Assembly: GCA_021162935.1 (NCBI GenBank)
Contig: JAGGXR010000159.1
Coordinates: 1 to 58,750 of the forward strand
From: Deltaproteobacteria bacterium
GTDB taxonomy: Bacteria; Myxococcota_A; Polyangia; HGW-17; SLPX01
Length of the DNA stretch: 58,750 nt
Direction: 5' to 3'
The translations under genes and the position numbers were made by a program. Within the stretch, counting starts at the first letter, position 1. Each line of letters begins with the position of its first letter. Under the pieces are notes generated by a model that made no database searches, was not told where the DNA came from, and saw only the letters and a list, made by a program, of their open reading frames with translations. Positions 696 to 29,448 of this stretch are shown here, in pieces.

Positions 696-2258
696 TTATT
701 TCGCCACGTCGGTGTAGCGCGATTCCCGTAGGACGTGGACCCGGATCTGACCTGGATAGCTCAGTTCGTTTTCGATCTTTTCCGCGATCTCCCGAGCGAG
801 TAGGACCGACCGTTCGTCGGAGATCCTGTCGTTTGCAACCACGACCCGGACCTCACGTCCCGCCTGGATGGCGTAGGCCTTTTTGACGCCGTCAAAGCCC
901 TTACAGAGTTTTTCCAGCACGTCAATGCGGCGCACGAAGGATTCGAGCATATCCCGGCGGGCTCCAGGCCGGCGGGCGCTCAGGTTGTTCGCTGTTTGGA
1001 CCACGATGTCGAGCAGGGTCGCAGGTTCTGGGTTGCCGTGGTGTGTGGCGATGGCCTGGACCACGGCGGGAGACTCGCCGTGTTTCCGAGCGAGTTCTGC
1101 TCCGACTTGAGCGTGATCGCCCTCCACGTTTTGGTCGAGGGCTTTGCCGATGTCATGCAACAGACCGGCACGTCGGGCCTGTTTGACGCTGATGCCCAGC
1201 TCGGACGCCATCAACCCGGCCAAAAATCCAACCTCGGCCGAATGGCGCAACAGATTCTGTGCGTAGCTCGATCGGTACTTGAGCGTTCCGATGAGGCGGA
1301 TGAGCTCGGAGTCCATTTTGTGGATCCCGAGGTCGAAGACGACCTGCTCACCAGCTTCCTTGCATTGGGCCTGGATTTCGGATTCGCAATGTCCAACCAC
1401 ATCTTCGATCCGCGCTGGATGGATGCGGCCGTCGGCGACGAGTCTGGTCAATGCCAGGCGAGCCACTTCACGCCGGACCGGGTTGAAGCAGGAGAGTAGA
1501 ACGGCCTCCGGCGTGTCGTCGATGACCACATCGACGCCGGTCGCCGCCTCGAAGGTTCGAATGTTGCGTCCTTCTCGGCCGATGATTCGGCCCTTCATCT
1601 CGTCACTGGGCAGTTCCACCACGGAGACTGTCCGTTCCGCCACGTATTCACCTGCGTATCGCTGGATTGCGGTGGCGATCAGGGTCTTGGTTCGTGCGTC
1701 TGCTTCGGCTCGAGCCTCATCTTCGATCTTTTTGATCGTGGCGGCAGCCTCGGCCTTGGCTTCGTCGAGGAGCTGCGCATTGAGGCGTTCCAACGCCTGT
1801 TCGGCCGACAAACCTGCCAGTTCTTCGAGTTGCTGCCTGGCCTGTGAGAGCGCCCTGTCCGCGGACAGGGCCGCCGCCTCGGCGGTTTGTTCCTTTTGTT
1901 TGAGTGCCTTGGTCTGTTTGTCCAGGTCGGCTTCCCGTTGTCGGGCGGACGACTGCTGCTTCTTGAGTCGTTCTTCCCAGCGGGCCAAGTCTTTGCGTTG
2001 TTCTGCAAGCTCCTTTCTCATTGTGTCCAGTTCTTCGGACACTTTGGACCGAATTTTCTGGACCTTTTCTTTGGCCTCGATTTCAGCGGCCGCAAGGATG
2101 CGTTTCGCTTCCGCTTTCGCTTCGTTCAGGATGCCGGCTGGATCTTCGGTCTCATCTGGCTGTTGCTCGGAGGGGCGTACGGCGAACCACCAATATGCTC
2201 CTCCAAGACCAGCAGCGAGACCAACGATCGCGGCCAGCAGGATACCCCACGGACCCAT
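696..2258 (-). CDS. rny: Ribonuclease Y
   Basis: This 520-residue protein has the full RNase Y architecture: one N-terminal membrane helix (about residues 4-26), a long charged coiled coil (about 30-190), a KH RNA-binding domain with GRIIGREGRNIRTFE, and an HD metal-phosphohydrolase domain with LLHDIGKALD. RNase Y is a membrane-anchored endoribonuclease that starts mRNA decay. The ATG at 2258 was chosen because GGAGG lies 8 bases upstream and the membrane helix follows directly; an extension to 2288 is open but lacks a ribosome site. It lies downstream of zapA on the same strand but 537 bp away, so it may have its own promoter. Length is normal for the family (about 510-530). Confidence 0.96.
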   Translation of the reverse strand: MGPWGILLAAIVGLAAGLGGAYWWFAVRPSEQQPDETEDPAGILNEAKAEAKRILAAAEIEAKEKVQKIRSKVSEELDTMRKELAEQRKDLARWEERLKKQQSSARQREADLDKQTKALKQKEQTAEAAALSADRALSQARQQLEELAGLSAEQALERLNAQLLDEAKAEAAATIKKIEDEARAEADARTKTLIATAIQRYAGEYVAERTVSVVELPSDEMKGRIIGREGRNIRTFEAATGVDVVIDDTPEAVLLSCFNPVRREVARLALTRLVADGRIHPARIEDVVGHCESEIQAQCKEAGEQVVFDLGIHKMDSELIRLIGTLKYRSSYAQNLLRHSAEVGFLAGLMASELGISVKQARRAGLLHDIGKALDQNVEGDHAQVGAELARKHGESPAVVQAIATHHGNPEPATLLDIVVQTANNLSARRPGARRDMLESFVRRIDVLEKLCKGFDGVKKAYAIQAGREVRVVVANDRISDERSVLLAREIAEKIENELSYPGQIRVHVLRESRYTDVAK

Positions 2259-2795
2259 CGACGAGCCTCCTTTCCAACGATACACCACGCCACAGACATG
2301 GCACGACGGCTCATCCTGCCCTGCAGGTACTCTCAGGTATGTCGTTGAAACGCCGCGACCCTACAGGTGGCCACACACCATGCTGCGGATCGATGGGTTC
2401 CAGATGAATTCGCGGTTCAGCCGGATCTGGTCTGCTCAGTCGAATCGAGTTAGCCAGACATGGACGTTATTCCTGGCAACTTGTAGGTCCTCCCTGACCG
2501 CGAACCGTTGCATTCCAAGCAGCTCATATCAAATGGCCGCTTCTAGCTTTTTCCTGAGAATATATGTCGAACACCTGTTCTGTGCAGGTGGCGCACCGAT
2601 AAAAGTTCCCCCGCTACAGCCGTGTGGAGCAACCCTCTGAACCTGGATGGTTCCCATCCAAAGGGGGTGCCTTTAGGTCACTTTAGGCATTTTCGACGAG
2701 GGAAATGCACACCATGACTGAAAAAGCTCCCATTTTCGAGGCGTTGGTTCGGAATGCGTCAACTCCATCACGAACCGAGCAGGGGAATATGTTTG
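2259..2795. other. 537-bp zapA-rny intergenic region with small hairpins, no gene seen
   Basis: No coding frame here looks real. Visible structures are a 7-bp hairpin with a 3-base loop at 2644-2660 (TGGATGG / CCATCCA), a 6-bp hairpin at 2572-2590 (CACCTG / CAGGTG), and a direct repeat CTTTAGG at 2671 and 2681. A long 5' leader for rny or a small RNA is possible because the gap is unusually long for this compact neighbourhood. The space next to zapA is a common site for 6S RNA in other bacteria, but no 6S-like closing stem was found here, and a better candidate lies at 27850. Confidence 0.4.
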
Positions 2796-3185
2796 TCACT
2801 GTTTCCTTTTTGGTTTTTCGATCACCTCGTTTTGTACCAACTGTGCATCAATGATATCTAAGATCCTGTTTGATTTCAAGCGAATATTTTTCTTGAGGGC
2901 GTTTGTGGCGGCACGTTCTTTGAAGAGTTCGTCGGCGATACGAAGTGCCGTCAGGAGGCTGATCTTCTGGGGGGACCCTGGCCGTGACGGGGCGGACAAT
3001 GCATCGTACTGTTCGTCGACGAAAGCCGCGAGTTGGTGGAGGTAGGCGGGGTCCGCGTCGGTCTTGATCGCATAGCGTTGACCGGCGATATAGAGGACGA
3101 CTGTGTGTCTTCGTGCCACCGGACTCCTGCCGTTGTTGTGCCGTCCCTCGTCTTGAGGGGGCGCGCTGGTTTCTGCTGCGACCAT
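2796..3185 (-). CDS. zapA: Cell division protein ZapA
   Basis: This 129-residue protein has an N-terminal tail of about 25 polar residues, then the ZapA globular domain starting at VVLYIAGQRYAIKTDADPAY, with the typical Y-L-x-x-L-A-x-x-V-D-E element and a C-terminal helix for coiled-coil tetramerisation. ZapA bundles FtsZ protofilaments at mid-cell. The ATG at 3185 is preceded by AAGG about 5 bases upstream and by a strong promoter at 3205-3234. It is the first gene of a leftward unit with rny downstream. Length is slightly above the usual 100-110 residues because of the N-terminal tail. Confidence 0.9.
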   Translation of the reverse strand: MVAAETSAPPQDEGRHNNGRSPVARRHTVVLYIAGQRYAIKTDADPAYLHQLAAFVDEQYDALSAPSRPGSPQKISLLTALRIADELFKERAATNALKKNIRLKSNRILDIIDAQLVQNEVIEKPKRKQ

Positions 3186-27814: not shown

Positions 27815-27843
27815 TTGACCGAAGCCGCTGTCGTGCCCATAGT
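27815..27843 (+). promoter_or_regulatory. Promoter for the 6S RNA candidate
   Basis: TTGACC (27815-27820), a 17-base spacer and CATAGT (27838-27843). The seventh base after the -10 box, 27850, is exactly the first base of the closing stem of the RNA described next, which supports both calls. Confidence 0.6.
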
Positions 27844-27849
27844 AGAGGT

Positions 27850-28030
27850 GGTGCTTCTGCCGGGTTCGTGAGGGTTTCTGCATTTTTGTTCCCTACGAGA
27901 AAGTCCCCGGGATCCACCACTGGCCGTGGAGCGCAGACCCACTCGTGGGGAGCCGGAAGCGGTTACTGTGGAGCCCACCTGTTCATGAGGGGATCAGAAG
28001 ACGTTTCCCAACGGCTCGGGCGGTTGCATC
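27850..28030 (+). ncRNA. ssrS: Candidate 6S RNA
   Basis: 6S RNA binds sigma70-RNA polymerase by mimicking an open promoter. This 181-base segment has the right size and outline. The ends close as GGTGC-TT-CTGCC (27850-27861) with GGCGG-TT-GCATC (28019-28030): ten pairs around a T-T mismatch, like the end stem of known 6S RNAs. A large open region follows (27862-27903 opposite 27994-28018). Above it are TCCCC/GGGGA (27904-27908/27989-27993), then GGG-AT-CCAC with GTGG-AG-CCC (27909-27917/27968-27976), and TGGCC/GGTTA (27921-27925/27961-27965). A promoter ends seven bases upstream and a strong hairpin follows directly. The family call is by structure and needs a covariance-model search. Confidence 0.62.
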
Positions 28031-28065
28031 GTGCAGGCGGCTTGATTTTTTCAGGTCGCCTGCAC
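28031..28065 (+). terminator. 15-bp hairpin ending the 6S RNA candidate
   Basis: 28031-28045 pairs with 28051-28065 over 15 base pairs (two G-T) with a five-T loop, starting at the base after the RNA's closing stem. The tail has only a short T-run (CATTTT), so it may be a terminator or a processing hairpin. Confidence 0.6.
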
Positions 28066-28137
28066 GTCATTTTGGATCATGTGAGGTGGCTCGAATCCGC
28101 ACGATTGGTTCTTTGTGCAGTGCAGATGCTTTGAGGA

Positions 28138-28176: not shown

Positions 28177-29448
28177 TTAGTCGTCGTCCTGGTGCTTCAG
28201 TACCACGGCGTCCAAGATCGCGTCGTCGACCCCGTCGCCGTTGCGGTCTGCATTGGACCATGAACCCAGCAGCACCCTGCCGGCTTTGGGAGCCAGGTTG
28301 AGCTTGTAGGCCATGAAGTCCCCTTCGAAGGTCTTTCGCCAGCTCGTGGGATCGCTCTCATCGCATGTCGCAGCAGTGAGGCAGGATTCGTTCAGGAACC
28401 TGATGGAGACGGCCCCGTTCGCCCACGTGCCGTCGATTGCAACCTCCCACGTGCCCTGTGAGATGTTCGAATCGAACCAGCCGTCCGAAAAGAAGTCGAT
28501 GGTCTTGAGGGGAACCTCTTCGAGGGATGCATTCGGCCCGAGGATGATCGGAGCGGATAATGCGTCTTCGGACAGCATCTGGTCGGTGGTCCCGTCATAG
28601 ACTTGCTCAACGAAACCAGTAACTCGGAACGATCCCAGCAGGCCCGTGGCCATCAGTCCTTCGTAGAAGGGGCAATCGAACGTGACGAGTTGGTCGCTCG
28701 CCCGATCTGAATCGCAGGTCTCATCCAACGATGTGGCCTGGTTGACACAGTAGGGAATCCGCTCGGATGCGGTGGCGTTGCGAGGATCCCAGCACGTCTT
28801 GTTGCTGGCGCAATCGGGATCCTGGCAATCGGTCAGGCCGTCGCCGTCGTTGTCCTGGCTGTCGTCGCAGGCGCAGGCCTCGGACGAAGCGTCGCTGCAA
28901 CAGACCGCAGCGGTCGAACAGTCTGGGTCGTCGCAGTCGGTCCGGCCATCGCCATCGTTGTCGATGCCGTCGTCGCAGCACACCCCTGCACAGTCCGGAT
29001 CCTGTTCACAATCGGTCAGGCCGTCGCCGTCGTTGTCGATGCCGTCGCAGCAGCAGGAGACGGCGCGTTCGGCCTTTTGGCAGCAGAAGCCGGACATGGT
29101 GCAGTCCGGGTCGTCGCAGTCGGTCAGGCCGTCATCGTCATTGTCTTCCCCGTCGTTGCATTGGCAGGCTTCCGAGTGCCAGCAATCCGGGTCGTCGCAG
29201 TCGGTGAATCCGTCACCGTCGTTGTCGAGACCGTCCTGGCAGGACGCGGTGGTCCAGCCGCCCAGAACCGCATCATGGGCCCAGCACTGACATTGGGCCG
29301 TGCCCGCACCCCCTGCTGCACAGTACCGACTCGCGCAGGTCCAGGTGATATTCTCCAGTTTCTGGCAGTCGGAGTCCTTGCAACTGGACCAGACCGCTCC
29401 AGACAACAGGACACAGGCCATCCAAATGGGGGTCAGATTTCGACTCAC
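28177..29448 (-). CDS. Lipoprotein with Asp-rich calcium-type repeats
   Basis: This 423-residue protein starts at GTG 29448 (GGAGG upstream) with a lipoprotein signal (V-W-S-S-C, acylated Cys at 23). Residues 70-220 hold six to seven repeats of D-N-D-G-D-G-L-T-D-C-D-D-P-D-C, a dense calcium-binding pattern of the MopE/thrombospondin-3 type, with conserved Cys every unit. The C-terminal 200 residues form a beta-rich domain without a recognised family, containing several Cys (FDCPFYEGLM, N-E-S-C-L-T-A-A-T-C). It is probably a surface or extracellular protein that becomes rigid on calcium binding. It is encoded alone, and the preceding + strand gene diverges from it. Confidence 0.85.
   Translation of the reverse strand: MSRNLTPIWMACVLLSGAVWSSCKDSDCQKLENITWTCASRYCAAGGAGTAQCQCWAHDAVLGGWTTASCQDGLDNDGDGFTDCDDPDCWHSEACQCNDGEDNDDDGLTDCDDPDCTMSGFCCQKAERAVSCCCDGIDNDGDGLTDCEQDPDCAGVCCDDGIDNDGDGRTDCDDPDCSTAAVCCSDASSEACACDDSQDNDGDGLTDCQDPDCASNKTCWDPRNATASERIPYCVNQATSLDETCDSDRASDQLVTFDCPFYEGLMATGLLGSFRVTGFVEQVYDGTTDQMLSEDALSAPIILGPNASLEEVPLKTIDFFSDGWFDSNISQGTWEVAIDGTWANGAVSIRFLNESCLTAATCDESDPTSWRKTFEGDFMAYKLNLAPKAGRVLLGSWSNADRNGDGVDDAILDAVVLKHQDDD

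Follow-up and report, generated by a model that had tools for sequence, protein, structure and literature searches.

Two anciently diverged 6S RNA genes, one free-standing and one linked to zapA, on a single contig of a Polyangia genome

Introduction

The 6S RNAs of Escherichia coli and Bacillus subtilis have been described as mimics of an open promoter, from which the polymerase is released by the synthesis of a product RNA (PMC8876501). In beta- and gamma-proteobacteria the 6S gene lies directly 3' of zapA, within a zapB-zapA-ssrS-(fau) array (PMC7641849). Genomes with more than one copy have also been reported. Two 6S RNAs are expressed differently in B. subtilis (PMC11077062) and in Legionella pneumophila (PMC3048289), and two tandem copies are present in the B. 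cereus group (PMC7726162). Our literature search, which did not reach the main 6S-distribution surveys, retrieved nothing relevant on 6S RNA in myxobacteria or delta-proteobacteria. The locus studied here lies in a window of 58,750 nucleotides (contig JAGGXR010000159.1 of assembly GCA_021162935.1), for which a preliminary description, made from the sequence, had proposed a 6S RNA at 27850-28030 and had named a search with the Rfam covariance model as one way to check it.

Results

The entire window was compared with all 4227 Rfam families. Only two matches were obtained, both to 6S RNA (RF00013), and a permissive Rfam search of the window returned no match beyond these two. The first match, which we refer to as 6S-N, corresponds to the proposed locus and was matched by no family other than 6S; the second, 6S-Z, did not appear in the preliminary description. 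The features relevant to the two genes are as follows.

27815..27843, plus strand: sigma-70-type promoter of 6S-N, TTGACC-17-CATAGT (from sequence; conserved position in free-standing copies)
27851..28030, plus strand: 6S RNA gene of the free-standing type, 6S-N (RF00013 match and covariation)
28030..28066, plus strand: intrinsic-terminator-like hairpin of 16 pairs, followed by TCATTTT (from sequence)
2604..2788, minus strand: second 6S RNA gene, of the zapA-linked type, 6S-Z (RF00013, 72.9 bits, E=1.7e-12)
2796..3119, minus strand: zapA (Pfam PF05164, E=1.2e-14; GTG start assumed)
696..2288, minus strand: rny, encoding RNase Y (Pfam RNase_Y_N, KH_1 and HD)

6S-N passed the covariance-model check, with a score of 76.9 bits (E=1.9e-13) against a curated cut-off of 46.4 bits, and the alignment extended over the full length of the model (positions 1-187 of 187). 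Its predicted first base is 27850 or 27851. The 180 bases between the promoter and the terminator-like hairpin fall, by sequence, within the range of roughly 150-240 bases expected of a 6S RNA with its own transcription unit. No ZapA was found within 2 kb of 27851-28030, as the preliminary description had stated for its site, and linkage to zapA is not among the traits by which 6S RNA is defined; the second copy in the window does adjoin zapA. The neighbours of 6S-N are a DUF4388-DnaJ-TPR protein on one side and a repeat-rich protein without a Pfam match on the other. The latter (28177-29448, minus strand) comprises 423 residues with repeated DNDGDGxTDCDDPDC motifs and ends about 110 bases past the 6S-N terminator, on the opposite strand. 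No tRNA genes were found in the window.

6S-Z likewise covered the full 187-position RF00013 model. It begins seven bases past the stop codon of zapA, upstream of rny, and thus lies directly 3' of zapA, the position that defines a zapA-linked locus; the zapA-rny order is kept in relatives. The two genes are approximately 41% identical in alignment. No further 6S match was obtained elsewhere in the assembly, which spans 5.1 Mb and is 97% complete, and both genes are located on the same contig, so one organism carries both copies unless the contig is misassembled.

The sigma-70-like site of 6S-N ends seven bases ahead of 27851, and both this site and the start of the stem at 27850 are present as described earlier. 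The 60 bases 5' of each copy were scanned for suitably spaced hexamer pairs in which 8 or more of the 12 positions matched. Of 54 free-standing 6S genes (6S-N included), 72% had a promoter-like pair at the same spot, compared with 4.4% of shuffles, whereas the same scan detected none at the start of the zapA-linked copies (0/6). A promoter-like site, TTGAAA-17-TATCAT, is present farther upstream of 6S-Z, inside zapA (2851-2879). The hairpin that had been noticed at the 6S-N end begins at 28030 and counts 16 pairs; its arms span 28030-28045 and 28051-28066, and the tail that follows is rich in T. Judged by eye, a hairpin with a T-run, or a direct T-run, follows many of the free-standing orthologues. 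Given its own promoter and terminators, the free-standing copy has the look of an independent transcription unit. The zapA-linked RNA probably arises by processing of the zapA transcript or by termination inside it. It is solely from gene order and promoters that we infer different expression of the two copies.

The closing stem of 6S-N is formed by 27850-27854/28026-28030 (GGUGC/GCAUC) and, after a 2x2 bulge, by 27857-27861/28019-28023. The ten pairs previously described between 27850 and 28030 can all be traced in the sequence. The folding energy of the 181 bases alone was unremarkable (z = -1.03 against shuffles), and single-sequence folding energy was consequently rejected as uninformative. 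The minimum-energy fold (-72.5 kcal/mol, versus -46.5 kcal/mol for the consensus fold) includes a helix of 12 pairs that has no place in the 6S fold. When the terminator was included, 6S-N folded better than 200 of 200 shuffles, the strong terminator hairpin being part of the tested stretch. The evidence beyond chance therefore comes from the covariance-model score and from comparative data rather than from folding energy.

For the covariation analysis, 15 free-standing copies (6S-N and 14 class relatives) were aligned, with the Rfam fold projected from 6S-N. Pairing was observed in 79.9% of cells, and both-sided changes occurred at 27 pairs, a number reached in none of 500 shuffles (mean 17.5). 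The covariation score was 0.325, compared with 0.179 for shuffled and at most 0.141 for slid alignments. The closing and internal stems are kept by compensatory changes, with 84% of cells paired in helix 1 and 81% in helix 3. The helix flanking the bubble is weaker (70.7% of cells paired), and for three of its ten pairs around half of the sequences, or more, cannot form the pair. RNAalifold also lengthened the closing stem by covarying pairs between alignment columns 24-28 and 175-179. The zapA-linked set, comprising six sequences only, showed the same covariation behaviour. The motif CCUAC, on the 5' flank of the bubble, is invariant in the free-standing type, which would fit the start of a product RNA at this position; the predicted first bases of such a product would be GUAGGG for the free-standing copy and GUUGG for the zapA-linked one.

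In related genomes, covariance-model matches exceeded the RF00013 cut-off in most members of the same order (11 of 13 genomes) and class (33 of the 39 further genomes searched). Taken with the conserved promoter position, the covariation and the terminators of orthologues, the RF00013 match bears out the original proposal, and to judge by its sequence 27851-28030 is a genuine 6S RNA gene, and an unexceptional one within a well-known family. The free-standing type is distributed class-wide. In seven families (f7, f10, f12, f13, f15, f16 and f18) it often adjoins nuoH/nuoI, named by reading the translated neighbours, without a profile search, and in f4 it lies upstream of a ClpB-like gene; 6S-N itself has neither neighbour. 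The zapA type is kept in some families only and is missing in many, Rfam having identified it in f1 (both genomes), f12, f13 and f16. In an unclassified MAG (L103), zapA and 6S are followed by what appears to be fau, and then by rny. Four f11 genomes (G027, G035, G043 and G051) have two 6S matches each, with zapA undetected within 2 kb, possibly as a result of a separate duplication in that family.

RF00013 returned no 6S match on 40 zapA loci of relatives at E values up to 3. A clade-specific model, R1, was built here from six zapA-linked sequences, including 6S-Z, which itself scores 165.7 bits against it. R1 recovered a 6S RNA 3' of zapA in G002 (121 bits) and G005 (107 bits), both of family f2 in the same order; these copies, missed by RF00013, lie at 1207-1393 of L122 and 1164-1350 of L116, each on the minus strand. 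Both f1 genomes and both f2 genomes therefore carry two 6S RNAs. A loss of the zapA type in all 40 relatives, as suggested by RF00013 alone, was ruled out by R1 in G002 and G005, and RF00013 under-counts zapA-linked 6S RNAs in some class members. Model R2, applied without filters to L050 and to the 38 zapA loci that remained, returned the known G020 copy, a remnant in G037 and noise, with nothing above noise at the other loci. Absence of the zapA type from these loci is likely, and depends on the model. In G037 (f13), the zapA-rny gap (L106, approximately 310-360) contains the closing stem alone, TTTCCCCTGC...GCGGGGGAATTTT, which forms a T-tailed hairpin (-24.6 kcal/mol) 3' of zapA. The interior of this 6S RNA seems to have been deleted, and the leftover ends may serve as a terminator.

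Such decay raises the question of whether 6S-N could itself be a decaying pseudogene, with the zapA-linked copy doing the work, since two copies are present and one of the zapA type has been cut to its closing stem in G037. We consider this very improbable: it is the free-standing copy that is kept across the class, with a score of 76.9 bits, a promoter, a terminator and paired changes, and the type missing in many families is the zapA type.

In a maximum-likelihood tree built from the 6S sequences of the genomes searched, the zapA-linked copies grouped together with 99% ultrafast-bootstrap support, with the divergent G020_C102 falling outside. 6S-N fell into a group (100%) together with G001_C11 and with the free-standing copies from families f13 and f16; the underlying alignment is short and divergent, and the deeper branches are to be read with caution. 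As far as these sequences indicate, the two 6S copies belong to two old, anciently diverged lineages, and the tree gives no direction of duplication. Two strongly diverged paralogues in one genome would permit specialisation, and 6S-N might accordingly be imagined as a 6S-like RNA directed at core polymerase, or at the holoenzyme of a different sigma factor, instead of the primary-sigma holoenzyme, in the manner of Ms1, which is reported as structurally related to 6S and as binding core polymerase (PMC9130861). We give this very little credence, as 6S-N covers the entire 6S model and is matched by no further family in Rfam. The possibility that promoter-like site, stem and terminator fell into line by chance in an intergenic region, with which the insignificant folding energy (z = -1.03) would agree, is already refuted by the E value of 1.9e-13, the orthologues, the covariation and the conserved promoter.

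Discussion

The best explanation overall, to which we assign a probability of roughly 0.94, is that 27851-28030 encodes a polymerase-trapping 6S RNA with its own housekeeping promoter and an intrinsic terminator. 6S-N would be transcribed from that promoter and ended at the terminator, and the RNA, a rod opened by a bubble at its centre, would mimic an open promoter. By analogy with other members of the family, it would bind the primary-sigma RNA polymerase holoenzyme and keep it off weak promoters as growth slows, with release of the 6S RNA following once the polymerase had used the bubble as template for a short product RNA. 6S-Z, situated between zapA and rny, probably derives from the zapA transcript. 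A tentative extension, which we regard as rather doubtful, is that labour is divided between the two: 6S-N might act as a general holoenzyme trap, and 6S-Z, made with cell-division and RNA-decay genes, might tune the polymerase differently, the zapA copy having been lost repeatedly and once reduced to a terminator stem.

These observations extend the lineages that carry two 6S RNAs by a class that seems to be represented mainly by draft genomes, and provide a clear case of two old 6S paralogues in different gene settings of one genome. The failure of RF00013 to detect some zapA-linked copies bears on surveys in which 6S genes are counted.

Compared with described 6S RNA (SsrS, RF00013), 6S-N is alike in its length, full-length model match, two arms around a bubble, and own promoter and terminator. 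It differs from a typical SsrS in adjoining neither zapA nor fau, in the class-specific CCUAC and in the covarying extension of the closing stem. 6S-Z resembles the zapB-zapA-ssrS-(fau) array in its zapA linkage, but has rny downstream. L. pneumophila, with 6S and 6S2, is likewise a Gram-negative bacterium with a second copy (PMC3048289). B. subtilis, with 6S-1 and 6S-2 (bsrA and bsrB), likewise has two diverged 6S RNAs at separate loci of one genome (PMC11077062, PMC7726162); in comparison with that duplication, the paralogy reported here is traced within the class only. The two-copy setting thus has precedents and is a known kind of arrangement.
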